The notes under the pieces were generated by a model. It saw only the letters and a list, made by a program, of their open reading frames with translations, ran no database searches and was not told the origin of the DNA. The position numbers and the translations under genes are program-made. Positions 42,552 through 60,276 of a DNA stretch of 64,000 bases are shown in pieces. Each line of letters begins with the position of its first letter. Position 1 is the first letter of the stretch. The DNA comes from Adhaeribacter aerolatus (GTDB lineage: Bacteria; Bacteroidota; Bacteroidia; Cytophagales; Hymenobacteraceae), in the NCBI RefSeq assembly GCF_007991635.1, contig NZ_BJYS01000037.1, positions 1 to 64,000 of the forward strand, written 5' to 3'.

Positions 42552-43412
42552 TTATTCGGCCAGAATATAGATGGCAATAACGGCTAGTACCATTCCGGTT
42601 AAGACTACAAAATGCGGCATAACCATATACAATAGCAGCGAAATAATGATGGTAATTACCGGAGCTAGCGCCGTGATGGGTACCACAATAATGGCTTTGC
42701 CGTAGCGTAAGGCATAAACCAGCGTTAAAGCCCCGATTGAATTCAGCACCTGGATTAGGGCGGCCAGGTAAGGTCCTTTAAAGTCCCAATTAATATCTTG
42801 TGAAAAATCCGTCATCCATAAGGCAACCGGAATCAGTAATATGGCCGTTAGCATCATGTAGAAAAAAATGCTTTCGGCTTTCATGGAGTCGTTGGAGAAC
42901 TTCATGGCAAACGCCTGAATGCCCCACATAAAAAACACCACTATCGACAGTAGCAGCCACAGGTAACCGCTTACATTTTTATCGTTTGGTTCCTGGTAAG
43001 AAAGGGAGAGAATAGCCACCAGCGCCAGTATAATACCCAGCCAATGCCGGCGCGTGGTGGTTTCTTTTAAAAATAAGGTGGACATAAAAATGGTTACCAC
43101 CGGGAAAAGCGAAATAATGGGGAATACCACGTAGGCCGGGCCAGTCCGTAAGGCCTGGAATAGGATGAGCTGGCCCGCCGCTCCCAGTATTCCTACCAAA
43201 CAACCCCAGAATATGGATTTGGCATCGTACTCCAGTTTAAAATTAATATTTATTAAGGCTACAATGGCACAGGGAATCATGGTTAGCGCCCACACCGTAT
43301 AACCCAAAGTAGCCGGAAAGCCGGCTTTTTCCGGAATTTCTATAAAAGCGCCCCAAATACCCCAAAGCAGCGTCGTAATAAATGTGTAGAGTACCCAAGG
43401 TCTTTTTCCCAT
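42552..43412 (-). CDS. EamA/DMT-superfamily permease
   Basis: Inner-membrane protein of 286 residues with ten hydrophobic segments and the two-repeat pattern of the drug/metabolite transporter superfamily. The first repeat starts LYTFITTLLWGIWGAFIEIPEKAG and ends SLSYQEPND. The second starts GYLWLLLSIVVFFMWGIQAFAMKF and ends with a hydrophobic tail, YILAE. GPAYVVFPIISLFPVVTIFMS and GKAIIVVPITALAPVITIIIS are the matching helices. It lies 30 bases downstream of the DeoR-type repressor on the same strand and is divergent from the aga-type operon. That suggests it brings in GalNAc, galactosamine or a related sugar, as some DMT members carry sugars. Specificity is inference. Confidence 0.85.
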   Translation of the reverse strand: MGKRPWVLYTFITTLLWGIWGAFIEIPEKAGFPATLGYTVWALTMIPCAIVALININFKLEYDAKSIFWGCLVGILGAAGQLILFQALRTGPAYVVFPIISLFPVVTIFMSTLFLKETTTRRHWLGIILALVAILSLSYQEPNDKNVSGYLWLLLSIVVFFMWGIQAFAMKFSNDSMKAESIFFYMMLTAILLIPVALWMTDFSQDINWDFKGPYLAALIQVLNSIGALTLVYALRYGKAIIVVPITALAPVITIIISLLLYMVMPHFVVLTGMVLAVIAIYILAE

Positions 43413-43442: not shown

Positions 43443-44222
43443 TTAAACAACAATTACCTGAATGCCCATATTTTCCAGTTTTTTCTGGTCTTCCAGGGGA
43501 ATTCCGGCATCGGTTACTACCACATCTACTTCCGAGATGGGCGCAATAAAAGCAAAACTCCTTTTCAGGAATTTACTCGAATCGGTAACCACAATTACCT
43601 TTTTCGAAATGTCGATCATAATCCGGTTCAGGTGCGCCTCTTCTACATTCGGCGTCGAGAGGCCGTGCGTAGTACTAAAGCCATCTACCGCCAGAAATAA
43701 CTTATCGCAGAAATAATTTCTAAAACTTTCTTCGGCGGTAGCACCTACCAGCGACAAGGAATTTTTGCGCAAGAACCCGCCCGGTACAATTACATTGGCA
43801 TTCTGGTGTTCGGCTAACTGGTTAGCCACGTTCAGGGCATTGGTTATAACCGTTAATTCCGTTAAGTTAGTTAAGTTCTTTGCTATTTCGAGCGTAGTAG
43901 TACCGGAATCCAGAATAATGGTATCCCCTTCTTCTACCAACTGGGCCGCCGCAAAACCAATGTTCTTTTTTTCTTCTAAATGCTTCTTGTTTTTATCTGA
44001 AAGTGCAAAGTCAACGCCTACCCTATCGAGCTTAATGGCACCGCCCCGGGCCCGGATAAGCATATTTTTTTGCTCTAAGCGGCGCAGGTCGTTCCGGATA
44101 GTTACTTCGCTAACTTTTAATTCTTCACTTAAAGCACCAACATCTACTTGTCCATCAGCCTCCAGTTTATTTAATATAATTACCCGGCGTTCAACGGTCG
44201 ATTTTTTATCTACTTCTATCAT
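43443..44222 (-). CDS. agaR: DeoR/GlpR-family repressor, AgaR-like
   Basis: Cytoplasmic DeoR-family regulator of 259 residues. The N-terminal winged helix-turn-helix is at about 8-62 (VGALSEELKVSEVTIRNDLRRLEQKNMLIRARGGA). The C-terminal DeoRC sensor domain contains DSGTTT (105-110), the phosphosugar-binding loop related to ribose-5-phosphate isomerase folds, and VDGFSTTHGLSTPN. It is divergent from agaS-pfkB-pfkB-aldolase across a 275-base A/T-rich gap. It is therefore the likely repressor of both directions, released by a sugar phosphate such as tagatose-6-phosphate or GalNAc/GalN-6-phosphate. A TTTCGTTTCG-type element before agaS fits. The AgaR name rests on context rather than on unique residues. 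Confidence 0.88.
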   Translation of the reverse strand: MIEVDKKSTVERRVIILNKLEADGQVDVGALSEELKVSEVTIRNDLRRLEQKNMLIRARGGAIKLDRVGVDFALSDKNKKHLEEKKNIGFAAAQLVEEGDTIILDSGTTTLEIAKNLTNLTELTVITNALNVANQLAEHQNANVIVPGGFLRKNSLSLVGATAEESFRNYFCDKLFLAVDGFSTTHGLSTPNVEEAHLNRIMIDISKKVIVVTDSSKFLKRSFAFIAPISEVDVVVTDAGIPLEDQKKLENMGIQVIVV

Positions 44223-44497: not shown

Positions 44498-45760
44498 ATG
44501 TTAAAAATCGATAAAAATAAGAAGGTAAATGGTTCAACTGATTATTTAGGCTATAATCAATCGGAACTGCAAGAGCGCGGGGCTATTCATACTGCCAAAG
44601 AAATATCTGGTCAGCCAAAACTTTGGTTAGATACCTGGAGCCTGGTGGCACAGGATCGTTTTCGTTTGGATTCGTTCCTGGAAGAAGCCTATGCCCATCC
44701 GGACCTGAATGTTTTATTGACCGGCGCCGGCACATCGGCCTTCATCGGCGATATTTTAGAGGGACCGTTTCAGCGGAATTCCGGAAAATCTACCCGCGCC
44801 GTGGCCACCACCAATTTAGTGTCGCACCCGGGGAATTACTTTCATGCGCAGGTACCTACTTTGTTAATCTCATTTGCCCGTTCCGGCAATAGTCCCGAAA
44901 GTGTGGCAGCCGTCAATCTGGCCGATAAGCTTTGCCAGAAAATATATCATTTAATTATTACCTGTAATCCGGCCGGAGAACTGGCAACGCTTAAATCCCA
45001 GAATACCTCGCTGGTGTTTCATTTACCACCCGAAGCCGACGACCAGAGCTTGGCCATGACCGGCAGTTTTTCTTCAATGCTGCTGGCCGGTCTGCTTATT
45101 TCCCGGCTGGCTATAATAGATGAGCTGGAAATCCAGGTAAAACAGTTGGCCGCTTACGGCGAAGGCATCTTAAGTAACTTTACCGCTAAACTAAAAGAAA
45201 TAGCCGCCCTAAACTTTAACCGGGCTATTTTTCTGGGTTCCGGCCCGCTCCACGGCACCGCCCGCGAGTCGGATTTAAAATTACAGGAACTGACAGATGG
45301 AAAAATTATTTGCAAACATGATTCCTTTTTAGGTTTCCGGCACGGCCCTAAAGCAGTAATAGATGCCACTACCCTGCTGGTTTACCTGTTTTCGAACCAA
45401 GCCTATGTGCACCAATACGAATTGGATTTGGCACAGGCTATTAGCCAGGGCGATAAAGGTATATTCCGGTTAGGGGTAATTGAATCTACGCAAAAAGCAG
45501 AAGCGGTAGAAGTGGATTGGCTGCTGCAGCTTTCGGATGGTAACCCACCCATTGACGAAGAACTTTTAGCTGTTTGCAGTGTAATGCCCGCTCAGATTCT
45601 CGGATTCTTTAAATCTCTGGATTTAAAACTAAAACCTGATGCCCCTTCGGTTAATGATTCCATTACCCGGGTAGTACAAGGTGTTAATATTTATCCTTTT
45701 GAGGTGGCTTTGCCCACCAACGGCCAGCATAAACTTAAAAAGGTAAAGTTAAATTCCTGA
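44498..45760 (+). CDS. agaS: AgaS-like ketose/aldose isomerase (SIS domain)
   Basis: Cytoplasmic SIS-domain protein of 420 residues, close in length to AgaS (about 385). AgaS converts galactosamine-6-phosphate to tagatose-6-phosphate with release of ammonia. Seen: HTAKEISGQPKLW (31-43), the first SIS loop TGAGTSAFIG (75-84), ARSGNSPES (127-135), and the second SIS domain with GSGPLHGTARESDLKLQELTDGKI and GFRHGPK (279-285). The tail PDAPSVNDSITRVVQGVNIYPF is typical of AgaS. It is the first gene of the plus-strand operon, one base before the next kinase gene. An AgaR-like operator lies just upstream. No deacetylase gene accompanies it, which AgaS would need if the incoming sugar is GalNAc-6-phosphate. 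Confidence 0.9.
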   Translation: MLKIDKNKKVNGSTDYLGYNQSELQERGAIHTAKEISGQPKLWLDTWSLVAQDRFRLDSFLEEAYAHPDLNVLLTGAGTSAFIGDILEGPFQRNSGKSTRAVATTNLVSHPGNYFHAQVPTLLISFARSGNSPESVAAVNLADKLCQKIYHLIITCNPAGELATLKSQNTSLVFHLPPEADDQSLAMTGSFSSMLLAGLLISRLAIIDELEIQVKQLAAYGEGILSNFTAKLKEIAALNFNRAIFLGSGPLHGTARESDLKLQELTDGKIICKHDSFLGFRHGPKAVIDATTLLVYLFSNQAYVHQYELDLAQAISQGDKGIFRLGVIESTQKAEAVEVDWLLQLSDGNPPIDEELLAVCSVMPAQILGFFKSLDLKLKPDAPSVNDSITRVVQGVNIYPFEVALPTNGQHKLKKVKLNS

Positions 45761-45761
45761 T

Positions 45762-46709
45762 ATGATTCTTTGCTTATGCCCGAATCCGGCAATTGATATG
45801 TACATCTGGCTGAACACGTTTGCAGCCGGCCAGGTGAATATTCCTCAAAAAGAAGAACGGTTTCCGGGCGGCAAAGGTGTGCACGTAGCTTTGGCAGTAG
45901 CAGAACTGGGCGAACCGGTTATGCTGCTCGGCTTCTGGGGCGGACCAACTGGCCAGTGGGTCCGGGAAAAATGCGAGGCCCTGGGAATTGCCTGTTATGG
46001 TCCGGATGTAAGCGGCTGGACCCGGACTTGCCTGAGTTTTAAAGGCGAAAATAACCTGGATGATACAGAGCTGCTGGGCATTGGTCCCTCCATTTCGGAG
46101 GCAGATTTCGAAAATTTTTTAAAAATATTCGTGAGATTAGTAACATCTGCCGATTTAGTAACCATGAGCGGTTCCTGGCCCCAAGGTGCGCCACCCGATG
46201 CTTATGCCCAGATCCTGGCGCTCGCCCACACCGCCCGCAAGCATACTGTTCTGGATTGTGCCGGCGAGCAGTTGCAGCAGGCCTTAAAGCAAAAGCCCTT
46301 AGCGGTTCATGTAAACCGCCGCGAAGGGGAAAGCCTTTTCCGGGAAGCGGATCCGGTCCATCTAGCAGCGCTGCTGGCGGAAAGATGTACCTACGCCGCT
46401 GTAACCGCCGGAGCAGACGGTTTGTATCTGGCTGCTCCAAACGAATTTATCCAGGCCAGTTGCACCTTAGATAATATTTTTAGTGCGGTAGGTAGCGGCG
46501 ATTGTTTGGTAGCTGGTTTGGCCGTGGCTTTTATAAGAGGCATGGCTTTAACCGAAGTAGCCCGGCTGGGAGTGGCTTGCGGCAGCGCTAATTGCCTACG
46601 GCCCGAGTTGGGTATGCTTCACCGCTCCGATGTAGAAAGGCTGCAACCGCAGGTAAAAATAAAACAACAGGAAAAAATAATGAAACCACTAAACTATTCG
46701 CAATCCTGA
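45762..46709 (+). CDS. PfkB-family hexose-phosphate kinase, LacC-like
   Basis: Cytoplasmic PfkB-family kinase of 315 residues, most like LacC/FruK: phosphorylation of tagatose-6-phosphate (or fructose-1-phosphate) at the free primary hydroxyl to make the bisphosphate. Seen: CPNPAIDMYIWLNTF (6-20), FPGGKGVHVALAVAELG (34-50) as the substrate-binding lid, and GFWGGPTGQ. The catalytic loop SAVGSGDCLVAGLAVAF has Asp247 and Cys in place of the common Ser. It starts one base after the agaS stop, so translation is probably coupled. In the pathway it supplies tagatose-1,6-bisphosphate to the aldolase two genes on. FruK-like activity is an alternative. Confidence 0.85.
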   Translation: MILCLCPNPAIDMYIWLNTFAAGQVNIPQKEERFPGGKGVHVALAVAELGEPVMLLGFWGGPTGQWVREKCEALGIACYGPDVSGWTRTCLSFKGENNLDDTELLGIGPSISEADFENFLKIFVRLVTSADLVTMSGSWPQGAPPDAYAQILALAHTARKHTVLDCAGEQLQQALKQKPLAVHVNRREGESLFREADPVHLAALLAERCTYAAVTAGADGLYLAAPNEFIQASCTLDNIFSAVGSGDCLVAGLAVAFIRGMALTEVARLGVACGSANCLRPELGMLHRSDVERLQPQVKIKQQEKIMKPLNYSQS

Positions 46710-46714
46710 TTACC

Positions 46715-47659
46715 ATGAAAGCTATTGATGTAATTGTAGTGGGCGAACTAAACGTTGATTTAATTCTGAATCAAATTGGTACTTTCCCCGAAGTAGGCAA
46801 AGAAATATTGGCGCAGCAAATGACCTTAACGCTGGGTAGCTCCTCGGCCATTTTTGCCAGTAACCTCAGCAGTTTAGGCGCTAAGGTGGCTTTTATTGGT
46901 AAAATAGGCCAGGATCCTTTTGGTGAAGTGGTATTACAAAGCTTGCAAGCCAAGGGGGTAGATACCAGCCTGATTATTCAGAGTGCTGATTTACATACCG
47001 GGGCTACCGTAGTCCTCAATTTCGACGAGGACCGGGCCATGGTTACCCACCCGGGGGCCATGAATGCATTGTGCCTGGCCGATATATCGCCGGAACATTT
47101 ATCGCGGGCCAAACACCTGCATTTTTCTTCTTATTTTTTACAGCCCGGTTTACAGAAGGAAATAACTGATCTGTTCCGGTTAGCCAAAGCGTTGGGCCTG
47201 ACCACCTCTTTTGATACCCAATGGGACCCGCAGGAAAAATGGGACCTGGATTTAGCGCAGATTCTGCCTTATGTAGATGTTTTTCTGCCCAATGAAAAAG
47301 AACTTTTTAAACTTACCCGTACAAATTCGCTAACCGAAGCGATTGCGGTTCTACCGGAAAACACCCGTACGGTGCTGGTAAAAATGGGTAACAAAGGTTC
47401 GGTATCCTGGTGCGATGGCAAATTATTACCCATGGAACCCTTTTTGAATGAAGATGTAGTAGATGCCATCGGCGCCGGCGACAGCTTCAACGCTGGTTTT
47501 ATTTATAAATATATTCAGGGAGCCTCCGTGGAAGAATGCCAGCGCTTCGGCAACCTGACGGGCGCCGTTTCTACCACCGCTGCGGGTGGTACCACCGCCT
47601 TTACCGACTACAATAAAGTAAAAAAAATTGCTCAGGAAAAATTTGGATACGCCTTATAA
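46715..47659 (+). CDS. PfkB-family sugar kinase, second copy
   Basis: Cytoplasmic PfkB/ribokinase-type kinase of 314 residues. The ATG at 46715, 5 bases after the previous stop, gives MKAIDVIVVGELNVDLIL, the normal family start. An upstream in-frame ATG at 46592 would add 41 non-family residues overlapping the previous gene and is rejected. Seen: GSSSAIFASNLSSLGAKVAFIGKIGQDPFG (41-70), LPNEKELFKL (191-200), and DAIGAGDSFNAGF (250-262) with catalytic Asp256. It is of the ribokinase rather than LacC branch, so it probably phosphorylates a free sugar. In a bacterium without a visible PTS here, a GalN/GalNAc kinase is an appealing guess. Fructose or KDG kinase are alternatives. Confidence 0.85.
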   Translation: MKAIDVIVVGELNVDLILNQIGTFPEVGKEILAQQMTLTLGSSSAIFASNLSSLGAKVAFIGKIGQDPFGEVVLQSLQAKGVDTSLIIQSADLHTGATVVLNFDEDRAMVTHPGAMNALCLADISPEHLSRAKHLHFSSYFLQPGLQKEITDLFRLAKALGLTTSFDTQWDPQEKWDLDLAQILPYVDVFLPNEKELFKLTRTNSLTEAIAVLPENTRTVLVKMGNKGSVSWCDGKLLPMEPFLNEDVVDAIGAGDSFNAGFIYKYIQGASVEECQRFGNLTGAVSTTAAGGTTAFTDYNKVKKIAQEKFGYAL

Positions 47660-47660
47660 C

Positions 47661-48494
47661 ATGACCTTACAGGAAAAATTTAAAGAAATGCAAGCCAAAG
47701 GGGCGGCTTTACTAGCCACTAACTTTTACAATTACGAAACTTTGCGGGGCGTGCTGGAAGCAGCTTCTGCCCTGCAGCAACCCATTATTTTACAACTTAC
47801 CCGCAGTTCTATTGATTACATGACCTTACCCGTGGCCGTTAAAATGGCCCGCGCTGCCTTACAGGAACACCGGGTAGAAGGCTGGCTGCACCTGGACCAT
47901 GGAGATTCTTATGAACTAGCTGCGCAATGCTTAGATGCCGGATTCGATTCAGTAATGATTGATGCCAGCGAAAAACCCATCAACGAAAATATAGCGGTAA
48001 CCCAACGGGTAGTAGCTTTAGCTAAACAATATAATGCCAATGTTGAAGCCGAACTCGGTTACGTAGCCAAACTGGGGCAATCGAAAGATAAATTAGGTTT
48101 TACCGAACCCGACGAAGCCCGCTACTTTGTGCAGGAAACCGGCATTGATGCCTTGGCGGTGGCCATTGGCTCGGCGCATGGCTTTTACACCGAAGAACCC
48201 AAATTAGATTTAGAAAGACTAAGCCAGATTCAGGCGGTTACCGATGTGGCCCTGGTCCTGCACGGCGGCTCGGGCATTGCCGGCACCATGTTACAGGAAG
48301 CCATTCAGCGCGGTATCTGCAAAATTAATCTGGCAACTGAAATCAAAAATATATTCATGTACCAGCTAAAGGCCGATCTTTTAAAAAGCGATGAAATTGA
48401 CTTACGCAAAGTTTTCCCGCCGGCCATCAAAGCGGTTACCAACCTGGTTAAGGAGAAGTTAGAAATCGTTAAAAATGAATTAATCAGCAAATGA
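47661..48494 (+). CDS. Class II ketose-bisphosphate aldolase, GatY/KbaY-like
   Basis: Cytoplasmic zinc-dependent aldolase of 277 residues, cleaving tagatose-1,6-bisphosphate (or fructose bisphosphate) to glyceraldehyde-3-phosphate and DHAP. The ATG at 47661 lies one base after the kinase stop and starts MTLQEKFKEMQAKGAALLATNFYNYE, as in GatY; an ATG at 47628 would overlap the kinase. Seen: LHLDHGDS with catalytic Asp79 and zinc ligand His80, EAELGYVAK (Glu131), IGSAHGFY (His173), LHGGSG (His201) and INLATEI near residue 224. It closes the AgaS-kinase-aldolase route. Its stop overlaps the following amidohydrolase start by ATGA, physically tying that gene to the sugar pathway. Confidence 0.92.
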   Translation: MTLQEKFKEMQAKGAALLATNFYNYETLRGVLEAASALQQPIILQLTRSSIDYMTLPVAVKMARAALQEHRVEGWLHLDHGDSYELAAQCLDAGFDSVMIDASEKPINENIAVTQRVVALAKQYNANVEAELGYVAKLGQSKDKLGFTEPDEARYFVQETGIDALAVAIGSAHGFYTEEPKLDLERLSQIQAVTDVALVLHGGSGIAGTMLQEAIQRGICKINLATEIKNIFMYQLKADLLKSDEIDLRKVFPPAIKAVTNLVKEKLEIVKNELISK

Positions 48495-49642
48495 CAGGCG
48501 CTTTAAACAATTTCCGTTCCCTCCTGCTAACTTCCTTGCTGGCACTTGCCCTGCAAAACTGCTCGCAGCCGCATTCCGAGAAAGCAACCGCCGGAAACAA
48601 AAACGCAACAACCGCTTCGGCTGAATATTACGGGCCCGACGATTTCCGAAAGGTGGAGAAGTTTGACACGCACGTGCATTTTAACAAGGTAGATTCTACT
48701 TTTATCAACAAAGCCCGGGAAGAAAACTTCCGGTTGATTACGGTTAATGTCAATCCGGCTTATTACCCCGCCATTGAAAAACAACGGGAAATAGCCATGC
48801 AATTAGTAAAAACTTACCCCGAACGCATAGCCTACGCCACTACTATTTCGATGGACGGCTTTAATGAGCCGGGCTGGCAGGAAAAGACCTTAGTCTACTT
48901 AAAAGACTCTTTCGATAAAGGCGCTATTGGCGTGAAAGTTTGGAAAAATATTGGCATGGAGTTTAAAGACAAGGATGGCAAATTCGTCATGATTGATAAT
49001 CCTAAATTTGATCCCATTTTTGATTTTATCCAGCAGCAAAATAGAACTCTGATTGGCCATATTGGGGAACCGAAAAATTGCTGGCTGCCGGTAGAGCAAA
49101 TGACCGTGGCCGGCGATAAGAAATATTTTAGCGAGCACCCGCAGTACCACATGTACCTGCACCCGGAATATCCATCTTACGAAGAAGTCATTCAATCACG
49201 GGATAATGCGCTGGCCAAGCACCCCAACCTGCGTTTTGTAGGTGCCCATTTAGGTAGTCTGGAGTGGAGTGTAGATGAGTTGGCCAAGCGCCTGGACAAA
49301 TACCCCAACATGGCCGTGGACATGGCCGAACGTATTTCGCACTTCCAGTACCAGGCGGTAACCGATTGGCAGAAAGTACACGACTTCTTTATTAAATACC
49401 AGGACCGCCTCCTGTACGCCACCGACCAGGAAATAGATGATAATAAACAACCTGCCGAAAGGAATAAGAATGCTGAAGAGGTCTGGAAAAGACACTGGTT
49501 GTTCTTTACCTCGGGCGAAAAGATGAAGGTACCGAAAGTAGAGAAAGAATTTAACGGCTTAAAACTGCCGCGCGAAGTAGTAGATAAACTCTACTACAAA
49601 AATGCCCAGAAGTGGTTTCCAGGGGTGAATAAAGCCGCCTAA
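48491..49642 (+). CDS. Lipoprotein amidohydrolase (PF04909-like), copy 1
   Basis: Exported metal-dependent hydrolase of 383 residues with lipobox LQNC (Cys24). Amidohydrolase-2-type TIM-barrel motifs: DTHVHF (His61, His63), LIGHIGEP (His190), FVGAHLGSLEW (His253) and LYATD (Asp312), the usual metal and catalytic residues. Relatives include decarboxylases and sugar lactonases (COG3618-like). The start overlaps the aldolase stop by 4 bases, so it belongs to the GalNAc operon. The next gene is a close paralogue with long identical DNA blocks. Its reaction is unknown. Candidates are amide hydrolysis, such as HexNAc deacylation, or opening of sugar lactones made by the oxidoreductase-fold enzymes downstream. 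Confidence 0.85.
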   Translation: MTGALNNFRSLLLTSLLALALQNCSQPHSEKATAGNKNATTASAEYYGPDDFRKVEKFDTHVHFNKVDSTFINKAREENFRLITVNVNPAYYPAIEKQREIAMQLVKTYPERIAYATTISMDGFNEPGWQEKTLVYLKDSFDKGAIGVKVWKNIGMEFKDKDGKFVMIDNPKFDPIFDFIQQQNRTLIGHIGEPKNCWLPVEQMTVAGDKKYFSEHPQYHMYLHPEYPSYEEVIQSRDNALAKHPNLRFVGAHLGSLEWSVDELAKRLDKYPNMAVDMAERISHFQYQAVTDWQKVHDFFIKYQDRLLYATDQEIDDNKQPAERNKNAEEVWKRHWLFFTSGEKMKVPKVEKEFNGLKLPREVVDKLYYKNAQKWFPGVNKAA

Positions 49643-49717
49643 AACTGCGGCATTACACCACTTACCACGAACCCAAAAGCTATTTATTTAGATACAGAAC
49701 TTCGAAAATAATCCACC

Positions 49718-50875
49718 ATGATAAAAACCTGCCAACTTAATTACCTGCCACTTCTCTTCCTGGGGCTGTTTGGTCTTTTACAGAGCTGCTCGCAGCAGAA
49801 AAATGCCGAAAACAGTTCTGCGGGCGATAACAGTACCGCAACAGCCAAAACCGAATATTATGGTCCGGACGATTTTGAAAAGGTAAAAAAATTCAACTCC
49901 CATATCCACATCAAGGTGGAGGATACGGCCTTTGCGCAACAGAATATCCGGGATAATTTTGATTTTTTAGTCGTTAACGTCGCCTCGCCTTCTTCGCCGC
50001 CGCCGCCCAAACAACAGGAAATAGCCTTGCAAGTGGTAAAAGCTTACCCCGAACATGCCTCCTATGCCACCACCTTTTCCCTGGAGGGCTTTAACGAGCC
50101 GGGCTGGCAGGAAAAAACGCTGACCTACTTACAAGATTCTTTTGACAAAGGCGCCCTTGGCGTGAAAATCTGGAAAAATGTAGGCCTGGTGCTAAAAGAC
50201 AAAGAAGGCAAGTTCGTCATGATTGACGATCCCAGATTTGATCCTATTCTGGATTTAATCGAGAAGAATAATAAAACTTTGATTGGGCATATTGGGGAGC
50301 CGAAAAATTGCTGGTTGCCGGTGGAGCAAATGACCGTGGCCGGCGATAAAAAATATTTTAGCGAGCACCCGGAATACCACATGTATCTGCATCCGGAGTA
50401 CCCTTCTTATGAAACCATCATTAACGCCCGGGATCACATGCTGGAAAAGCATCCCAACCTGCGTTTTGTGGGTGCTCATTTGGGCAGCCTGGAGTGGAGC
50501 GTGGATGAGCTGGCCAAGCGCCTGGACAAATACCCCAACATGGCCGTGGACATGGCCGAACGTATTTCGCACTTCCAGTACCAGGCGGTAACCGATTGGC
50601 AGAAAGTACACGACTTCTTTATTAAATACCAGGACCGCCTCATCTATGCCACCGACGAAACGGTTAACGGCACAAAAACGCCGGCAGAAGTAAACCGGCT
50701 GGCCCACGAAAACTGGCTCCGGCACTGGCAATTTTTTACCTCGGGCGAAAAGATGAAGGTGCCAAAAGTAGAAAAAGAATTTAACGGCTTAAAACTGCCG
50801 CGCGAAGTAGTAGATAAACTCTACTACAAAAATGCCCAGAAGTGGTTTCCGGGTATCGCCAAAACGAAGGTGTAA
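49718..50875 (+). CDS. Lipoprotein amidohydrolase (PF04909-like), copy 2
   Basis: Paralogue of the preceding gene (385 residues), lipobox LQSC (Cys24). The first motif is NSHIHI (His62, His64), where the usual Asp before the first His is Asn-Ser. GHIGEPKNCWLPVEQMT, GAHLGSLEW and the YATD motif match copy 1. The N-terminal 110 residues diverge (SPSSPPPPKQQE insert), while the rest is nearly the same. DNA is identical over 131 bases (50511-50641 and 49281-49411) and over 77 bases (50774-50850 and 49544-49620), so the copies arose by tandem duplication and perhaps gene conversion. The altered first motif may change metal binding or substrate. Confidence 0.83.
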   Translation: MIKTCQLNYLPLLFLGLFGLLQSCSQQKNAENSSAGDNSTATAKTEYYGPDDFEKVKKFNSHIHIKVEDTAFAQQNIRDNFDFLVVNVASPSSPPPPKQQEIALQVVKAYPEHASYATTFSLEGFNEPGWQEKTLTYLQDSFDKGALGVKIWKNVGLVLKDKEGKFVMIDDPRFDPILDLIEKNNKTLIGHIGEPKNCWLPVEQMTVAGDKKYFSEHPEYHMYLHPEYPSYETIINARDHMLEKHPNLRFVGAHLGSLEWSVDELAKRLDKYPNMAVDMAERISHFQYQAVTDWQKVHDFFIKYQDRLIYATDETVNGTKTPAEVNRLAHENWLRHWQFFTSGEKMKVPKVEKEFNGLKLPREVVDKLYYKNAQKWFPGIAKTKV

Positions 50876-50892
50876 TAATTTATACAGGCAAC

Positions 50893-51996
50893 ATGCATAA
50901 CCATCCGGGCAAAGCTTTTCTTCTACTCTTTTTGCTGAGCTGCCTCTGCCATCAGGCAGTTAACGGGCAAGGTGCTGATTTGAGGCTTTTAGACTGGCAG
51001 CCCCGGAGCCAAATGGTAGTTAAAGTAACGAATATTCAGAAGCCTAAATTTCCGGTTATAGATATTCATAATCATTTACGGGACTTAAAAAACGCCGAAA
51101 AATATCTGGCCGAAATGGAAAAAGCCGGCGTCTGGAAATGTGTAAGCCTGGATGGCCGCTCCGCCGATAACTTTTACAAAGAGCATTTAAAAGCTTCGCA
51201 GGCGGTTTCCCCAGATCGGTTCCTGGTTTTCTTTACGCCGGATTTTAGTAAAATAGATGCGCCCGACTTTGGCCGCCAGGAAGCCCGCAAACTGGAAGAT
51301 GCCGTAAAACTGGGTGCCCGGGGCATGAAAATATTTAAAACACTGGGCTTAACCATAAAAGATAAAAGCGGCCGCCTTGTGCCGGTAGATGATCCCCGTA
51401 TCGATCCTATCTGGGCGAAATGCGGCGAACTGGGTATTCCGGTTGTAATGCACGTTTCTGATCCCAAAGCATTTTTTACGCCGGTAGATAAACACAACGA
51501 GCGGTACGACGAACTGGCCGGCCACCCGAACTGGGCTTACGGCAAGGAGTACCCGGCCAAAGAAGAAATTCTGGCGCAACGTAACCGGGTGCTGGCGCGG
51601 CATCCCAAAACCATTTTCATCGGGGCCCACGTCGGCAATTTACCCGAAGAACTAAGCCGGGTTTCGGAATGGCTGGATACCTACCCCAATTTTTACGTGG
51701 AGATCTCGGCCCGCATCAGTGAACTGGGCCGCCAGCCTTATACGGCCCGGAAATTTATGATTAAAAACCAGGACCGGATTTTATTTGGTACCGATACGGC
51801 GCCTAATGCCGAAGCTTACCGGGTCTATTACCGCTTCCTGGAAACCGATGACGAATATATAGACCCGGCCGCCGGGCACCACCTGCAAGGCCGCTGGATG
51901 ATATACGGCCTTTCCCTGCCCGACGAGGTGCTGGAGAAAATATATAATAAAAATGCCCAAAAGCTTTTAAGCCGGTATCAGGATGCTAAAAAATAA
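50893..51996 (+). CDS. Secreted amidohydrolase (PF04909-like), divergent copy 3
   Basis: Exported hydrolase of 367 residues. The ATG at 50893, 17 bases after the previous stop, gives a proper signal peptide (MHNHPGKAFLLLFLLSCLCHQ, ending near VNGQ, residue 26). The ATG at 50842 would overlap copy 2 and is rejected. Metal motifs: FPVIDIHNHL (His59, His61), GARGMKIFKTLGL, VVMHVSDP, IGAHVGNLPEE and ILFGTDT. It shares the layout of copies 1 and 2 but is only distantly similar and lacks a clear lipobox, so it is an older family member. It is followed 27 bases on by the first GH109-type gene. Confidence 0.83.
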   Translation: MHNHPGKAFLLLFLLSCLCHQAVNGQGADLRLLDWQPRSQMVVKVTNIQKPKFPVIDIHNHLRDLKNAEKYLAEMEKAGVWKCVSLDGRSADNFYKEHLKASQAVSPDRFLVFFTPDFSKIDAPDFGRQEARKLEDAVKLGARGMKIFKTLGLTIKDKSGRLVPVDDPRIDPIWAKCGELGIPVVMHVSDPKAFFTPVDKHNERYDELAGHPNWAYGKEYPAKEEILAQRNRVLARHPKTIFIGAHVGNLPEELSRVSEWLDTYPNFYVEISARISELGRQPYTARKFMIKNQDRILFGTDTAPNAEAYRVYYRFLETDDEYIDPAAGHHLQGRWMIYGLSLPDEVLEKIYNKNAQKLLSRYQDAKK

Positions 51997-52023
51997 TTAT
52001 TAACCTATAAAAGATGAAAAGTT

Positions 52024-53355
52024 ATGAGCAATTATGATCGCAGAGACTTTTTAAAGCTTTCTTCCGCGGCTTTGGGCGGCTTGGCCCTGAGCGGATTGGC
52101 TTTACCGCAGGGTACGCTGGCACAAACAGCTCCGGCTAACAAACCGGTACGCCTCGGCTTTATTGGCATTGGGGGGCGGGGCTCTTTTCATCTTGATTCG
52201 GCATTGGGCATTGAAGGCGTAGAAGTGCCCGCATTATGCGAAATTATTCCGGCCCGCCTGGAGCGCGCCGCGGCCTGGGTGAAAGAATCCGGCCGGCCGG
52301 CGGCCCGCCTCTACGGCAAAGGCCCCACCGATTATTTACGCCTGATTTCCGAAGAAAAACTGGATGCGGTTATCTGCTGTACGCCCTGGGACTCCCATGC
52401 GGCTATTTGTCTGGCCGCCATGCGCAATAATAAACACGCCGTTTCGGAAGTACCGATCGTGCTAACCGTAGATCAGGCCTGGGAAATAGTGGAAACGTAC
52501 GAAAAAACCGGTAAATGGGCCACCATCGGGCTCGAAGGCTTCGGCGAAATGGCCGTTCTTAACATGATTCAGAAAGGTATGCTGGGCGATATTATTCACG
52601 CCGAAACCGGCTATATCCACGACCTGCGGCGGGTGAAATTCGACCCGGAAGAAGAGCCGTGGCGCTTACAACATGCCTTGGACCGGAACGGGAACCTCTA
52701 CCCCGATCATCCCATGAACAAAATGATGCCGGCCCTGGATATTAACCACGGCGACCGCTTTGATTTTCTGGTTTCGATGAGTTCTAAATCCGTTATGATC
52801 AATGATTATGCGGCCAAACAATTTGGCAAAGATTCTAAATACGCCAAAGCTAAAGTTAAACTCGGCGATTACAATGCCACCCTTATCCGGACGGTGAACG
52901 GCAAAATGATCACCCTGAACCATGATACCCATACCCCGCACCCCCGCGAGAATTACCGGGTACAGGGCACCAAAGGCGTTTACATGGGCGATAAAGGCTC
53001 CAAAAGAATATACATAGAAGGGGTTAGTCCGAAAGAACACGAATGGGAACCGGCCGAGAAATATTTGGCTGAACACGAACACCCGCTTCTGAAAAATTAC
53101 AACCCGCCCCCCCGGAAAGGAGGCGCCACCCGCGGACATGGCAGCCGCAGTACCCAAACGCCCATTGTCTGGCACAGGTTAGTCGCGGCGCTCCGCGAAA
53201 ATAAAATGCCGGATTGGGATGTGTACGATTCCGTTACCAGCAGTGCCATTTCGCCCTTAACCGAAGCATCCGTTGCCAGCAAAAGCCGGCCGGTAGACTT
53301 TCCGGATTTTACCAAAGGCAAATGGAAGCAGCGGAAACCCATGACTTTTGTTTAA
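52024..53355 (+). CDS. Tat-exported Gfo/Idh/MocA protein, divergent GH109-type
   Basis: Exported NAD-binding protein of 443 residues. A Tat signal (RRDFLKLSSAALGGLALSGLAL, residues 6-27) ends near LAQ (34). The Rossmann motif is LGFIGIGGRGSFH (44-56), and CTPWDSH and EVPIVLTVDQAWEIVE follow as in GH109. The catalytic region differs: where others have NGDLYPTHGIGP, it has NGNLYPDHPMNKMMPALDI, keeping Tyr and His but losing the THG. The tail DFTKGKWKQRKP is shared. GH109 enzymes use bound NAD to oxidise C3 and cleave alpha-GalNAc. Because of the altered loop this one may attack another sugar, or be a plain oxidoreductase. It is cotranscribed with the amidohydrolases. Confidence 0.82.
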   Translation: MSNYDRRDFLKLSSAALGGLALSGLALPQGTLAQTAPANKPVRLGFIGIGGRGSFHLDSALGIEGVEVPALCEIIPARLERAAAWVKESGRPAARLYGKGPTDYLRLISEEKLDAVICCTPWDSHAAICLAAMRNNKHAVSEVPIVLTVDQAWEIVETYEKTGKWATIGLEGFGEMAVLNMIQKGMLGDIIHAETGYIHDLRRVKFDPEEEPWRLQHALDRNGNLYPDHPMNKMMPALDINHGDRFDFLVSMSSKSVMINDYAAKQFGKDSKYAKAKVKLGDYNATLIRTVNGKMITLNHDTHTPHPRENYRVQGTKGVYMGDKGSKRIYIEGVSPKEHEWEPAEKYLAEHEHPLLKNYNPPPRKGGATRGHGSRSTQTPIVWHRLVAALRENKMPDWDVYDSVTSSAISPLTEASVASKSRPVDFPDFTKGKWKQRKPMTFV

Positions 53356-53412
53356 TTACCCCATCCACCACTTACCGACTAAAAAATTACGCAGCTTAAA
53401 ACAGCAATTTTT

Positions 53413-54765
53413 ATGAACAGACGCATTTTTCTGAAAAAGAATATTTTGGCCACCACCGGCTTGGCTTTGGCGCCGGCGCTATCCTGGGGCAAGGCTGTTG
53501 CGCCCGATAAAAAAGTACGGATAGGCATGATTGGCGTAGGCAAGCGCGGTACCAGTCATTTACGCAACTTACTCTACCGCGACGATATAACCATTCCGGC
53601 TATTTGCGATATTGACCCGGAGCGGATAAAGATAGCGCAGGAATTAATAGCCAAAGCCGGCCATAAAAAAGCGGAAAATTACACCAGCGGCGAGCACGCT
53701 TACCTGGATTTACTCAAACGCAAAGACCTGGACGGGGTGATTATAGCCACGCCCTGGGAATGGCATACCCCCATGGCCGTGGCCGCTATGAAAGCCGGAA
53801 AACGGCCCGGGGTAGAAGTATCGGCCGCTAATACCATTGAAGAATGCTGGGATTTGGTAAACACTTCCGAAGAAACCGGGGTGCATTGCATGATTCTGGA
53901 AAACTCCTGTTACCGCCGCGATGTAATGGCCGTGCTGAACATGGTACGACAGGGCGTTTTTGGGGAACTGGTACATTTACAATGCGGCTACGAACACGAC
54001 TTACGCAAAGTTAAATTTGAGCCGGGCGTGGAGTTTGGGGCCAAGGGCGTACACGAAGCCAGCTGGCGGACGAACCACTCGGTGCACCGCAACGGGGATT
54101 TATACCCTACCCACGGTATCGGACCTATGGCGCACTGCATCAACATTAACCGGGGCAACCGGTTCGTATCTTTAACTTCGATGGCTACCAAATCGCGCGG
54201 ACTACACGATTATATTGTAAAGAACGGCGGCGCGGATCATCCCAACGCCAAAGTAGAATTTAAGCTGGGCGATATTGTAACCACGCTTATTTCTACCCAG
54301 AACGGCGAAACCATTGTGGTTACCCATGACACCAATTTGCCCCGTCCTTATTCGCTGGGCTACCGCGTGCAGGGCACCAACGGCATCTGGATGGTTGACG
54401 GAAATATGATTTATATCGAAGGGAAAAGCCCGGAAACAGGCCATGGCGAGAATCATAGAGGCGAAGCAGCCGATGCCATGCTGAAAGAATACGATCATCC
54501 GCTCTGGAAAAAATTGGCGCATAAAGCTACCGGCACCGGCCACGGGGGCATCGATTTCTTTGTCTTAAATTCTTATGTAGAATCGATTAAACGCAATGTA
54601 CCTTTCCCGATAGATGTGTATGATGCGGCCGCCTGGAGTGTTATCAGTCCGCTTTCCGAGATGTCGATAGCGGCCGGTGGCGCGCCTCAGTTATTTCCGG
54701 ATTTTACCCGGGGCAACTGGATAAACCGCAAACCGGTTTTTGCTTTATCAGATGACCATATTTAG
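53413..54765 (+). CDS. GH109-like alpha-N-acetylgalactosaminidase (Gfo/Idh/MocA fold)
   Basis: Exported NAD-dependent glycosidase of 450 residues. A Tat-like signal starts MNRRIFLKKN and ends near LSWG (26). The Rossmann motif is IGMIGVGKRGTSH (37-49). Blocks that I associate with characterised GH109 alpha-N-acetylgalactosaminidases follow: TPWEWHTPMAVAAMKAGK (113-130), EVSAANTIEECWD (135-147), ENSCYRRDVMAVLNMVRQGVFGE (163-185), NGDLYPTHGIGP with Tyr231 and His234, HDTNLPRPY, YDHPLWKK and DFTRGNWINRKP. It would release terminal alpha-GalNAc in the periplasm, feeding the aga-type genes upstream. It has a close inverted paralogue at 58945-60276. Substrate linkage is by family, not proven. Confidence 0.88.
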   Translation: MNRRIFLKKNILATTGLALAPALSWGKAVAPDKKVRIGMIGVGKRGTSHLRNLLYRDDITIPAICDIDPERIKIAQELIAKAGHKKAENYTSGEHAYLDLLKRKDLDGVIIATPWEWHTPMAVAAMKAGKRPGVEVSAANTIEECWDLVNTSEETGVHCMILENSCYRRDVMAVLNMVRQGVFGELVHLQCGYEHDLRKVKFEPGVEFGAKGVHEASWRTNHSVHRNGDLYPTHGIGPMAHCININRGNRFVSLTSMATKSRGLHDYIVKNGGADHPNAKVEFKLGDIVTTLISTQNGETIVVTHDTNLPRPYSLGYRVQGTNGIWMVDGNMIYIEGKSPETGHGENHRGEAADAMLKEYDHPLWKKLAHKATGTGHGGIDFFVLNSYVESIKRNVPFPIDVYDAAAWSVISPLSEMSIAAGGAPQLFPDFTRGNWINRKPVFALSDDHI

Positions 54766-55138
54766 CGGGATAGGACTTACCTAAACTATTGAAATTCACC
54801 CTTTGAAGCTATACTTACAAGGATATATAATTTTGACATTGCTGGTGCGAGCTTGTAGTTCGTACCGCCAATTTAACAGCATTGGTAAAGCTTATTTGGT
54901 AAAATAACCTTTGTTCGTCTCCTATTTAAAGCTGTCGGTAGTGAAAAGATACGAGCTACAAGCTCGCACCAGCCCTAAAAAATTAATAGCTTTTCCGCTA
55001 CAAAATTGACTTTGGGCAATGGGGAGAATTTACCGGGTTAAAACTTAATTGCTAAAGTTCTGAAACTTATAGCCTGTCATCTTGGTGGCTCTAACTATTT
55101 TTGAACTAGTCTATTATAAGCACTTAAATATTAATAAA
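54766..55138. other. 373-base intergenic region with an inverted-repeat element
   Basis: No gene-like frame. Its main feature is the long inverted repeat at 54841-54973, listed separately. The rest is A/T-rich and probably carries the leader of the following gene, breaking the otherwise tight spacing of the plus-strand operon. Confidence 0.5.
54841..54973. repeat. 133-base element bounded by 24-bp inverted repeats (MITE-like)
   Basis: Arms 54841-54864 (starting GCTGGTGCGAGCTTGTAG) and 54950-54973 (ending CTACAAGCTCGCACCAGC) are inverted copies with one mismatch in 24. They enclose 85 bases without a coding frame. The size and ends fit a non-autonomous palindromic repeat (MITE- or REP-like), or a long RNA hairpin between two genes. 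It is unlike the short terminator hairpins elsewhere in the window. No target-site duplication was evident by eye. Confidence 0.6.
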
Positions 55139-56551
55139 ATGAAAAATAACCGAAGGGATTTTATAAAATATACCGGACTGGCCGGAGCGGGGCTTTTGGT
55201 TGGTTGTTCTCCAAAAGATATAAAGGTTGGTTCTGCCCGAAATATTGTTTCGGGCAAAGAGCGCAAGCAGGTATTTAACATGACCGGCTATGCCGCTCCC
55301 GCTATGGAAACAGTGCGCCTGGGATTTATTGGTTTAGGCAGCCGTGGCCCCGGCCATTTAAATAATGCCAGCTTATTAGGCGGCGTCGAAATAAAAGCCT
55401 TGTGCGACATCAGGCCCGAAAGTATCGCGGCCGCTAAAAGACGCATGAAGGGCCAGGGCCATAACCCGGATATTTATACCGCAGGTGAAAACGACTGGAA
55501 AAAGGTTTGTGAGCGGCCGGATATCGACGTGATTTATATTGCCACGCCGTGGCACTTGCACACCCCCATGGCGCTGTATGCCATGGAGCACGGCAAACAC
55601 GTTTGCTGCGAAATTCCGGTGGCTACCACCTTAGAAGAATGCTGGCAGTTGGTAGAAACCTCCGAACGCACCCGCAAACACTGTGTCATGCTGGAAAACA
55701 ACTGCTACGATTTCTTTGAATTAATGACCCTGAATATGGTACGCCAGGGCTTTTTTGGCGAGATTATCCACGGCGAGTGTGCGTACATCCACGATTTGCT
55801 GGAAATGAATTTTTCCAAAACCCAGTACCAGGACATGTGGCGTCTGAAACAAAATGCCAGCCGGAACGGCAATTTATACCCCACCCACGGCCTTGGCCCC
55901 ATTTGCCAGATTATGAATATCAACCGCGGCGATAAAATGGATTACCTCGTATCAATGTCGAGTAATGATTTTATGATGGGCCCGATGGCGAAAGAACTGG
56001 CGGCGAAAGATGATTTTTATAAGCCTTTCGCCGACAAAAATTTCCGGGGTAACATGAACACGACTTCCATCCGCACGCTCAAAGGCCGGACGATTATGTT
56101 GCAGCACGATGTAACCTCGCCGCGGGTTTATTCCCGCATCCATTTGGTAAGCGGTACCAAAGCATCGGCCCTGAAGTTTCCGCTGCCGGGCCGCATTGCC
56201 ACCGGCCACAAAGATTGGGTTACGCCCGAGGAGTTAAAGGCACTGGAAGAAAAATACCAACCCGCCATTGTCCGGAAAGTGGGCGAACTGGCTAAGCAGG
56301 TGGGCGGCCATGGCGGCAAGGACTTTTTGATGAACTGGCGCGTTATCGATTGCCTGCGCAACGGTTTGCCCATGGATATGGATGTGTACGATGGGGTGCT
56401 TTGGAGTTCGATGTTTCCGCTAAGCGAAATATCCGTCAGTAACCGGTCCAGCGCCGTAGATATTCCCGATTTTACAGCCGGTAAGTGGCAAACTAATCAG
56501 CCAGTGGATATTTCCATGGCCCAGGGAGGTAACACTCAAATAAAACTTTAA
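55139..56551 (+). CDS. Tat-exported GH109-type Gfo/Idh/MocA protein, probable lipoprotein
   Basis: Exported NAD-binding protein of 470 residues. The ATG at 55139 gives MKNNRRDFIKYTGLAGAGLLVGC, a Tat signal ending in a lipobox-like Cys23; an ATG at 55082 adds 19 residues without signal character and is rejected. Seen: LGFIGLGSRGPGH (61-73), ATPWHLHTPMALYAMEHGK, EIPVATTLEECWQLVE, NNCYDFFELMTLNMVRQGFFGE, NGNLYPTHGLGP and GGHGGKDFLMNWRVIDCLRNGLPMDMDVYD. The family YRRDVM block is replaced by YDFFELM, so it is a separate GH109-like subgroup. A 373-base gap with an inverted-repeat element separates it from the previous gene. Probably a glycosidase on an alpha-linked HexNAc or related sugar. Confidence 0.84.
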   Translation: MKNNRRDFIKYTGLAGAGLLVGCSPKDIKVGSARNIVSGKERKQVFNMTGYAAPAMETVRLGFIGLGSRGPGHLNNASLLGGVEIKALCDIRPESIAAAKRRMKGQGHNPDIYTAGENDWKKVCERPDIDVIYIATPWHLHTPMALYAMEHGKHVCCEIPVATTLEECWQLVETSERTRKHCVMLENNCYDFFELMTLNMVRQGFFGEIIHGECAYIHDLLEMNFSKTQYQDMWRLKQNASRNGNLYPTHGLGPICQIMNINRGDKMDYLVSMSSNDFMMGPMAKELAAKDDFYKPFADKNFRGNMNTTSIRTLKGRTIMLQHDVTSPRVYSRIHLVSGTKASALKFPLPGRIATGHKDWVTPEELKALEEKYQPAIVRKVGELAKQVGGHGGKDFLMNWRVIDCLRNGLPMDMDVYDGVLWSSMFPLSEISVSNRSSAVDIPDFTAGKWQTNQPVDISMAQGGNTQIKL

Positions 56552-58944: not shown

Positions 58945-60276
58945 TTAAAATACTTCATTCAGGCCGAAAGTTGGTTTGCGGTTTATCCAGTTGCCCCGGG
59001 TAAAATCGGGGAAAGGCTGCGGAGCCCCGCCGGCCGCTACCGACATTTCCGACAAGGGGGTAATAACGCTCCAGGCGGCCGCATCATATACATCCAAAGG
59101 CGGCGGCGTTTGCCTTTTTACCGATTCCACAAAACCATTTAAGACAAAATAATCATTACCCGTGTGACCCGATCCTTTGGCTTTATCTTCGGATTTCTGC
59201 CAAAGCACATGGTCGAATTCTTTCATGTATTTGTCAGCTACTTCGCCCTGGTGCTCCGGGCTCTTTCCTTCTACATAAATCATGTTGCCATTATACATCC
59301 ACAGGCCATTGGTGCCCTGTACCAGGTAATTATTTGTTTTGGGCCGCGGCAAATTAGTATCGTGGGTAATTACAATGGTTTCGCCGTTTTGGGTAGTAAT
59401 AACGGTGGTTACAATATCGCCGAGTTTAAAGTTTACTTTTGCGTTCTGGTGGTTCTCCCCGCCTTTTTTAACAATATATTCGTGTAAGCCCCGGGCTTTG
59501 GTAGCTACCGAGGTTAATGAAAGGAATTTATTGCCCCGGTTAATATTTAACAGATTGGCTACAGGACCTATGCCATGAGTCGGATATAAATCGCCGTTGC
59601 GGTGCACCGAGTGATTGGTTCGCCATTTGGCTTCGTGTTGGCCATTTGCGCCAAATTCGGCACCGGGTGCAACTTTAATAGCCCGCAGGTCGTGCAAGTA
59701 GCCACATTCGCAATGCAAGAGCTCGCCGAAAAGTCCGCTCCGCACCATGTTCAGCACGGCCATTACATCGCGGCGGTAGCAGGAGTTTTCCAGAATCATG
59801 CAGGGCACGCCGGTTTCCTCGGAAGTGTTTACCAAATCCCAGCATTCTTCAATGGTATTGGCGGCCGATACTTCTACCCCGGGCCGTTTACCGGCTTTCA
59901 TGGCGGCTACGGCCATGGGCGTATGCCATTCCCAAGGGGTGGCAATAATCACCCCGTCCAGGTCTTTGCGCTTGAGCATTTCCAAGTAGGCATGGTCGCC
60001 GCTGGTGTACGTTTCCGGTTTTTTATGACCGGCTTTGGCTATTAATTCCTGCGCTATCTTTATCCGCTCCGGGTCAATATCGCAAATAGCCGGAATCAGC
60101 ACATCATCCCGTTTTAACAGGTTGCGTAAATGGTTGGTGCCGCGCAATCCAACGCCCAGAAAACCAATCCGGGCTTTTTTTTCCGGAGCGACGGCGGTAC
60201 CCCAGGAAAGCGCCGGCGCTAAGGCCAGTCCGGTAGTTGCCACTAAGTTCTTTTTAAGAAAAATACGTCTGTTCAT
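58945..60276 (-). CDS. GH109-like alpha-N-acetylgalactosaminidase (Gfo/Idh/MocA fold)
   Basis: Exported protein of 443 residues, a close paralogue of 53413-54765 on the opposite strand. A Tat-like signal starts MNRRIFLKKNLVATTGLALAPALSWG. The Rossmann motif is IGFLGVGLRGTNH (37-49). TPWEWHTPMAVAAMKAGK, EVSAANTIEECWD, ENSCYRRDVMAVLNMVRSGLFGE, NGDLYPTHGIGP, HDTNLPRPKTNNYLVQGTNG and DFTRGNWINRKP all match. The DNA of the middle third is roughly nine-tenths identical by eye to that of the plus-strand copy. Small differences lie in the C-terminal loops (QTPPPLDVYD against NVPFPIDVYD). It lies upstream of the CehA-like gene and downstream of the 60655 susD, with terminators on both sides. Likely releases alpha-GalNAc. 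Confidence 0.88.
   Translation of the reverse strand: MNRRIFLKKNLVATTGLALAPALSWGTAVAPEKKARIGFLGVGLRGTNHLRNLLKRDDVLIPAICDIDPERIKIAQELIAKAGHKKPETYTSGDHAYLEMLKRKDLDGVIIATPWEWHTPMAVAAMKAGKRPGVEVSAANTIEECWDLVNTSEETGVPCMILENSCYRRDVMAVLNMVRSGLFGELLHCECGYLHDLRAIKVAPGAEFGANGQHEAKWRTNHSVHRNGDLYPTHGIGPVANLLNINRGNKFLSLTSVATKARGLHEYIVKKGGENHQNAKVNFKLGDIVTTVITTQNGETIVITHDTNLPRPKTNNYLVQGTNGLWMYNGNMIYVEGKSPEHQGEVADKYMKEFDHVLWQKSEDKAKGSGHTGNDYFVLNGFVESVKRQTPPPLDVYDAAAWSVITPLSEMSVAAGGAPQPFPDFTRGNWINRKPTFGLNEVF

Follow-up and report, generated by a model that had tools for sequence, protein, structure and literature searches.

Among described systems, the closest to the operon analysed here are the Aga/Gam pathway of Escherichia coli, with AgaR, AgaZ/KbaZ, a phosphotransferase system (PTS), AgaA, AgaS and KbaY, and a Shewanella-type pathway for N-acetylgalactosamine (GalNAc). 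The operon lies in a stretch of 64,000 nucleotides, hereafter the window, which covers positions 1 to 64,000 of contig NZ_BJYS01000037.1 of Adhaeribacter aerolatus, a member of the Bacteroidota. The Shewanella-type pathway, reportedly laid out in Leyn 2012, is said to work without a PTS and to use the kinase AgaK and a variant deacetylase, AgaA-II. In the textbook route, AgaA or NagA deacetylates GalNAc-6-phosphate (PMC12118421; PMC3668189), and two other papers treat AgaA as deciding between the use of GalNAc and the use of galactosamine only (PMC5583593; PMC4694137). A survey of human gut genomes that took AgaA as its marker placed the GalNAc pathway only in Actinobacteria, Firmicutes and Proteobacteria, and found GalNAc-releasing enzymes to be far more widespread than the pathway itself (PMC5583593).

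The window operon has an AgaR-type repressor, a putative AgaS and a tagatose-bisphosphate aldolase in common with the E. coli pathway. However, it contains no AgaA or PTS genes, and has PfkB kinases, exported glycosidases and hydrolases of family PF04909; NagA is likewise missing from the window. The operon and the reported Shewanella-type pathway would both take up the sugar unphosphorylated and employ a cytoplasmic kinase, and the deacetylation step is known to vary. With a probability of about 55%, we regard the window as holding a catabolic operon for alpha-GalNAc glycans, set in a region rich in sulfatase-like and SusC/SusD-like genes, in which the PF04909 protein AmhA would replace AgaA/NagA. 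Gene content and order, their conservation, the absence of NagA matches and the presence or absence of hydrophobic N-termini were observed directly, and from these we infer substrates and reactions. The assignment of the operon to GalNAc is a good one, and the deacetylase role, proposed from gene context, is the best-supported account of the presence of AmhA, at slightly better than even odds. An original prediction, made from the letters of this stretch, had not recognised the arrangement as one already described. In the open-access literature, a scope that did not include Leyn 2012 on aga variants, we found no paper on this arrangement or assigning a function to AmhA, and none joining a GalNAc deacetylase, a galactosaminidase and GH36.

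Layout of the locus and the proposed route

The original prediction described a plus-strand run of ten genes of named families, and this description stood. All ten open reading frames (ORFs) are present, in a run from 44498 to 54765 followed by GH109c at 55139-56551, and their Pfam and NCBIfam matches agree with the families proposed. The features are listed below, with signals, including those of the twin-arginine translocation (Tat) type, read from the sequence by eye rather than by a signal-peptide program.

42552..43412, minus strand: EamA-family (DMT) transporter (PF00892, E 9e-31)
43443..44222, minus strand: AgaR-type DeoR repressor, divergent from the operon (NCBIfam AgaR equivalog NF040755, 290 bits, above the cut-off of 260)
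44498..45760, plus strand: AgaS, AgaS-family SIS protein, putative galactosamine-6-phosphate deaminase/isomerase (TIGR02815, E 1.4e-108)
45762..46709, plus strand: PfkB1, 1-PFK/hexose kinase (TIGR03168, 229 bits, over the cut-off of 216)
46715..47659, plus strand: PfkB2, ribokinase-type PfkB (PF00294)
47661..48494, plus strand: GatY-like class II (tagatose-)bisphosphate aldolase (PF01116, E 1.1e-84; TIGR00167, 228 bits, cut-off 215.6)
48491..49642, plus strand: AmhA, PF04909, lipoprotein-like signal, proposed GalNAc deacetylase
49718..50875, plus strand: AmhB, PF04909, tandem paralogue of AmhA (71% identity), lipoprotein-like signal
50893..51996, plus strand: AmhC, second PF04909 subfamily (E 1e-28; 32% identity to AmhA), signal-like hydrophobic N-terminus
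52024..53355, plus strand: GH109a, divergent Tat-type Gfo/Idh/MocA protein of GH109 type (PF21252, E 7e-54)
53413..54765, plus strand: GH109b, Tat-type GH109 (match to 2ixa, E 1.3e-153)
55139..56551, plus strand: GH109c, Tat/lipoprotein-type GH109 (match to 6t2b, E 4.4e-104)
58945..60276, minus strand: GH109d, fourth GH109-type protein (PF21252, E 2e-77)

From AgaS to GH109c, successive spacings are 1, 5, 1, -4, 75, 17, 27, 57 and 373 bases, the -4 being an ATGA overlap between GatY and AmhA. The predicted spacing of mostly 1-75 bases with one such overlap holds through GH109b and fails for GH109c; the 373-base gap and a 39-nt inverted repeat (79% complementary, within 54826-54988) precede this gene, and its co-transcription is not assured. 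The 15-base core of this repeat has six exact copies in the genome, with a facing pair only between GH109b and GH109c, and the element is possibly a small mobile or extragenic repeat.

AgaS aligns to TIGR02815 over residues 29-401 with 363 bits, which falls below the curated cut-off of 529, and its nearest solved chains (3odp, 3c3j and 3i0z) are titled putative tagatose-6-phosphate ketose/aldose isomerase. PfkB1 is likely a tagatose-6-phosphate kinase, and PfkB2, for which the NCBIfam search gave no equivalog above its own cut-off, is a candidate galactosamine (or GalNAc) kinase. The EamA protein, homologues of which are found repeatedly in AgaS/AmhA loci, is a candidate amino-sugar importer.

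All of GH109a-d contain PF01408 and the GH109 C-terminal domain PF21252, and are thus GH109 proteins by domain content; Tat-like RR-x-F-[LI]-K motifs can be seen by eye at the N-termini of GH109a, b and c. GH109b and GH109c resemble known GH109 alpha-N-acetylgalactosaminidases, the former aligning over nearly its full length with 2ixa, a solved alpha-N-acetylgalactosaminidase, and the latter likewise with 6t2b, titled glycosyl hydrolase family 109 protein 2, whereas the divergent GH109a is roughly equidistant from the two (230 bits to 2ixa, 217 to 6t2b). A study of the Akkermansia enzyme 6t2b (AmGH109A) gives Tyr226, His259 and His404 as catalytic (PMC10755693). The Tyr/His/His set is kept in GH109a-d, with motifs paired to residue numbers by position and not by structure; for GH109a and GH109c, the alignments with 6t2b agree at these residues. 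The loops read GHGS in GH109a, GHGG in GH109b, GHGG/GGHGG in GH109c and GHTG in GH109d. Because of the matches to solved enzymes and the kept catalytic residues and loops, GalNAc activity is predicted to be likely for GH109b, probably an alpha-N-acetylgalactosaminidase, and for GH109c, probably an N-acetylgalactosaminidase; it is plausible for GH109d and open for GH109a. The suggested link between an aga-type operon and GH109 recurs elsewhere: of the 30 Bacteroidota AgaS loci described below, 20 have a GH109 protein of at least 200 bits no farther than 10 kb from AgaS.

In the route that we propose, the Tat-exported GH109 enzymes would free GalNAc outside the cytoplasm, and AmhA-type hydrolases would deacetylate the free amino sugar, outside the cytoplasm in the window and inside it in most Bacteroidota relatives. 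Galactosamine would be imported by EamA in the window, or by the product of a sodium:solute symporter gene in several relatives, and phosphorylated by PfkB2; AgaS would deaminate and isomerise it to tagatose-6-phosphate, which PfkB1 would phosphorylate and GatY, acting on the product, would split. AmhA would then be a non-orthologous replacement of AgaA/NagA, and deacetylation would come before phosphorylation, the opposite of the textbook order.

The sequence of events outside the cytoplasm could also be reversed. In Flavonifractor, a two-enzyme route acts on blood group A by deacetylation and subsequent removal of galactosamine, and the exported copies in the window might similarly deacetylate terminal GalNAc on the glycan before a glycosidase frees galactosamine. 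The amidohydrolase copies of the window and of Pseudomonadota, which mostly have hydrophobic N-termini and adjoin glycosidases, are in keeping with such a scheme. However, the window glycosidases resemble enzymes solved as N-acetylgalactosaminidases, and AmhA forms that are not exported cannot reach a polymer, which makes action on the glycan a very improbable explanation.

AmhA and NagA at AgaS loci

Bacteroidota loci were sampled by AgaS alone (TIGR02815). A search of 296 genomes matched 29 at all, 18 of them strongly (E 1e-40 or better) and 11 only weakly (E 1e-11 or worse; left out), and one family contributed 21 of its 67 genomes, 10 of them shared with the first search; the threshold in searches other than the 296-genome one was E 1e-60 or better. 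The resulting 29 genomes hold 30 AgaS loci, and with 51 from Pseudomonadota the set comes to 81, the window and L075 being included as search centres. The sample is biased in that earlier matches prompted the choice of the family to which G250 belongs and of the order that includes G457. Counts rest on profile searches near AgaS, with AmhA called when it scored at least 250 bits and lay no farther than 10 kb away, and 'absent' means absent from the stretch, because the stretches often extend 9-10 kb from AgaS and no farther, or stop with their contig; the AmhA of L212 is cut by a stretch end. Four plasmid records stand outside the 81, L193 and L194 with NagA and L195 and L196 with neither gene. 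Contrasting AgaS loci with NagA include L197-L204 and L193, a Vibrio diabolicus plasmid with an annotated PTS and nagA.

The cluster is real and its linkage is conserved. A search for the gene order in other Bacteroidota, which the original prediction had proposed, was run and found AgaS-PfkB1-PfkB2-GatY-AmhA on one strand in 11 of the 30 AgaS loci, window included. AmhA is present in 22 of the 30 (L100 and L101 with just 268-277 bits), one has NagA without AmhA (L178), one has an AmhC-type gene only (L173), and six have none, including L168 and L169, where the contig is short or breaks off at the locus. Strong AmhA matches (E below 1e-110) occur in 14 of the 296 genomes, 12 of which belong to the 18 with strong AgaS; G194 and G134 do not. 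A clustering of the ORFs left without an assignment at 17 AgaS loci of Bacteroidota gave only three further families with members in at least three loci. They are a SusD protein, a DUF3472 protein and a sodium:solute symporter, and no known deacetylase is among them. In Pseudomonadota, AmhA co-occurs with AgaS, AgaZ, EamA and a kinase of BadF type, and usually also with a glycosidase of melibiase type (GH36/GH27). The AmhA tree shows linkage to AgaS in well-separated clades, with at least 15 label changes.

The original prediction saw no place for the amidohydrolases in the known pathway. For AmhA we revise this view, as it occupies the place that NagA/AgaA has in other AgaS loci and never occurs together with NagA within 10 kb of AgaS in the 81 loci: AmhA is found in 27 (two also with AmhC), NagA in 34 (one also with AmhC) and both in 0. 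Neither is found in the other 20, eight of which have an AmhC-like relative. Among the 51 Pseudomonadota loci the numbers are 33 with NagA, 5 with AmhA, 7 with an AmhC-type gene and 6 with none, again with no case of NagA with AmhA. Plain Fisher tests, which ignore kinship, give 1.1e-5 for 55 loci and 5e-9 for 81.

Several results weigh against this interpretation. On the AgaS tree, NagA changes in the direction opposite to AmhA in only one or two independent contrasts and in the same direction in none, while five or six show no difference; when AmhC is counted with AmhA, the contrasts are 1 against 4, and a few of the pairings include one contrast in the same direction. Comparison of independent pairs for AmhA and NagA, made on AgaS trees with 55 and with 81 rows, gave no significant result, because relatedness leaves few informative contrasts. 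The exclusivity also hinges on the 10-kb limit, as two AmhA genomes have NagA farther out, G203 at about 11 kb from AgaS (with a partial match) and G171 at about 20 kb. Seven AgaS genomes have no AmhA in the locus; two of them, G158 and G990, have NagA, and the other five (G009, G282, G147, G980 and G982) have no NagA anywhere; in G980 and G982 the contig that carries AgaS is short or breaks off there. By the rule given in an earlier study (PMC4694137), these five would use galactosamine only. The exclusivity of AmhA and NagA is thus a strong pattern resting on few large clades. L178 was considered as a clean exchange of AmhA for NagA and rejected, as its NagA is encoded on the opposite strand, beyond ORFs that by their sequence read as NagB-like and epimerase-like.

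A search of whole genomes for NagA (E 1e-20 or better) bears on a different explanation, in which GalNAc is imported and phosphorylated first, a NagA encoded elsewhere deacetylates GalNAc-6-phosphate, and the amidohydrolases act otherwise, for example in trimming the glycan. The genome of the window itself has NagA on contig C55, over the model cut-off and beside an MFS transporter, which speaks for this explanation and against our own. Among the 22 Bacteroidota genomes with AgaS and AmhA, seven have a NagA match (G000, G162, G171, G203, G966, G969 and G984), and several AgaS loci without a local NagA have one elsewhere in the genome, such as the AmhC-type loci L161-L167. In Rhodohalobacter sulfatireducens, whose locus L041 has both AgaS and AmhA, a NagA-like match is present in the genome. 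NagA and AgaA are also interchangeable in E. coli (PMC3668189). However, no contig of the other 15 of the 22 genomes, which are 95-100% complete, has a NagA match (G274, G250, G273, G092, G286, G119, G227, G108, G195, G199, G968, G981, G989, G988 and G970), and AmhA sits inside the core operon, overlapping GatY in the window. We consider deacetylation by a distant NagA unlikely.

The AmhA family

All three window amidohydrolases belong to PF04909, with 48, 46 and 101 bits for AmhA, AmhB and AmhC against a gathering score of 26.4, and the NagA model matched neither AmhA nor AmhC, the two on which NCBIfam was run. In 36 of 36 aligned AmhA-type sequences, with AmhA and AmhB included and AmhC outside the alignment, H61, H63, H190, H253 and D312 are invariant, as are K149, E193 and R281; we take the first five to be metal ligands in an HxH, H, H, D pattern. 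The AlphaFold2 (AF2) model of AmhA (mean predicted local distance difference test score, pLDDT, 88.7) has an amidohydrolase fold, and the modelled fold and invariant residues are consistent with a metal hydrolase without giving its substrate. AmhA resembles PF04909-type enzymes (2dvt, ACMSD, LigJ and PDC hydrolase) in fold and in the HxH, H, H, D pattern, but shares 10-16% identity with them and sits in a sugar operon. We know of no characterised member of the AmhA subfamily.

Some of these comparisons do not favour a deacetylase. The top fold match for the AmhA model in the PDB is the 2,6-dihydroxybenzoate decarboxylase 2dvt, at 16% identity, a PDB sequence search with AmhA gave no convincing match, and NCBIfam gave none for AmhA, AmhC or the AmhA of L087 (13288-14283), a short form that lacks a signal. 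In addition, our proposal does not account for the presence of two near-copies, AmhA and AmhB, together with AmhC in one window. PDB sequence and fold comparison, tried as a route to the substrate of AmhA, suggested none.

The DNA alignment of AmhA and AmhB (48491-50875) has a 100-column block that is fully identical, against a background of 44-89%, as after gene conversion. A third paralogue of AmhA (52% identity) occurs 5 kb past the window (L190, about 5200-6300; G000 contig C37:69199-70296), flanked by SusC-like genes; AgaS is absent from the 20-kb stretch.

Location was judged from the N-terminal hydrophobic stretch, scored by a hydropathy rule rather than a signal predictor. The 113 AmhA domains from all loci divide into 85 with such a stretch, 18 of which are AgaS-linked, and 28 that lack it, 24 of which are AgaS-linked; the N-terminus is uncertain in three or more of the latter group (L018, L040 and L042). 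The export predicted for the amidohydrolases is in line with the signal-like N-termini of the window copies and does not extend to the family at large, as AmhA without the stretch is present in 21 of the 22 Bacteroidota AgaS+AmhA loci, the window being the exception. Extra AmhA genes occur in L095 and L175, and that of L095 has the stretch. Both locations would be accounted for most simply by a small soluble substrate that is available on either side of the membrane, so that AmhA would act on free GalNAc and not on the phosphorylated sugar. Because this substrate is unphosphorylated, the same enzyme could be used outside the cytoplasm, as in the window and in Pseudomonadota, or inside it, as in most Bacteroidota AgaS loci. 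We tentatively suggest, at somewhat less than even odds, that AmhA represents a new class of amino-sugar deacetylase in the ACMSD/PF04909 branch, which would act on the free sugar (deacetylation, phosphorylation, deamination) on either side of the membrane.

Loci were also sampled by way of AmhA, 80 in all. In 20 of them AmhA has AgaS or a different SIS deaminase no farther than 8 kb away, none of the 20 having NagA and one (L065) having PIG-L; in the other 60 the examined stretch contains no such protein, and AmhA is therefore not confined to aga operons. The original prediction was to be abandoned if related genomes had the amidohydrolases unlinked to agaS. Seen from AgaS the linkage persists, and seen from AmhA it is often missing. 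Two groups of loci in this sample sit awkwardly with our proposal. In eight of the 80, exported AmhA relatives adjoin a 3-keto-disaccharide hydrolase together with a Gfo/Idh protein that is not of GH109 type (including the Arenibacter loci L024, L031, L032, L033, L052 and L055). Six have a PIG-L deacetylase beside AmhA (L039, L043, L045, L046, L051 and L065, the last also with AgaS), five of them with GH20, and a simple deacetylase role fits badly there because a second deacetylase adjoins. The AmhA family may not be uniform in function.

The eight loci with Gfo/Idh proteins are also what might be expected if AmhA were a lactonase, or another PF04909 enzyme acting on C-O or C-C bonds, in an oxidative Gfo/Idh sugar route, and if it adjoined AgaS through shared glycan substrates. 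The structural neighbours of AmhA, which are decarboxylases, hydratases and lactonase-like enzymes, point the same way. However, AgaS, the kinases and GatY require an aldose phosphate, so that a lactonase has no step in their route; the five-gene core contains no oxidoreductase, and the AmhA forms lacking a hydrophobic N-terminus in nearly all Bacteroidota AgaS+AmhA loci also argue against this role, which we regard as rather improbable.

Other contexts of these families were also seen. L019 and L023 (proteins tested were those of L023) have AmhA together with a sulfatase-like gene and with genes for an MFS transporter, a ROK kinase and a SIS protein that resembles GlmS/NagB-II; they have no NagA nearby and possibly encode a parallel pathway with the same logic for another N-acetylhexosamine. 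In the seven Pseudomonadota loci L161-L167, an AmhC-like PF04909 gene (about 300 bits) occurs with AgaS and a PfkB2-type kinase. Six of these loci also have AgaR and a PfkB1-type kinase; none of the seven has NagA within 10 kb, and all seven genomes have it elsewhere. AmhC and GH109a-type genes adjoin in the window (50893-53355) and in L073, L141, L143 and L178, the pair being sometimes doubled, and may form a functional couple independent of AgaS.

Surrounding region and significance

Nine minus-strand ORFs in 1527-31560 read as sulfatases by their C-x-[PA]-S-R motifs, with several SusC/SusD-type ORFs among them; a Pfam search with two of these nine confirmed both as sulfatases. Given these ORFs, the target glycan may be sulfated. 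Homologues of a 694-aa protein (56784-58868, minus strand) and of a 415-aa membrane-like protein (38213-39460, minus strand) recur near AmhA genes in L141 and L144, and a Pfam scan gave no match for either protein.

The novelty of AmhA would be much smaller if the AgaA-II of Shewanella turned out to be a PF04909 protein. Genome surveys use AgaA as a sign of GalNAc catabolism, and a second, unrelated deacetylase, if our proposal is true, would redraw the maps of this catabolism: genomes scored as 'galactosamine only' for want of AgaA would be those of GalNAc users. A conserved hydrolase family would likewise gain a function, and with it a possible free-sugar GalNAc deacetylase for glycan work.

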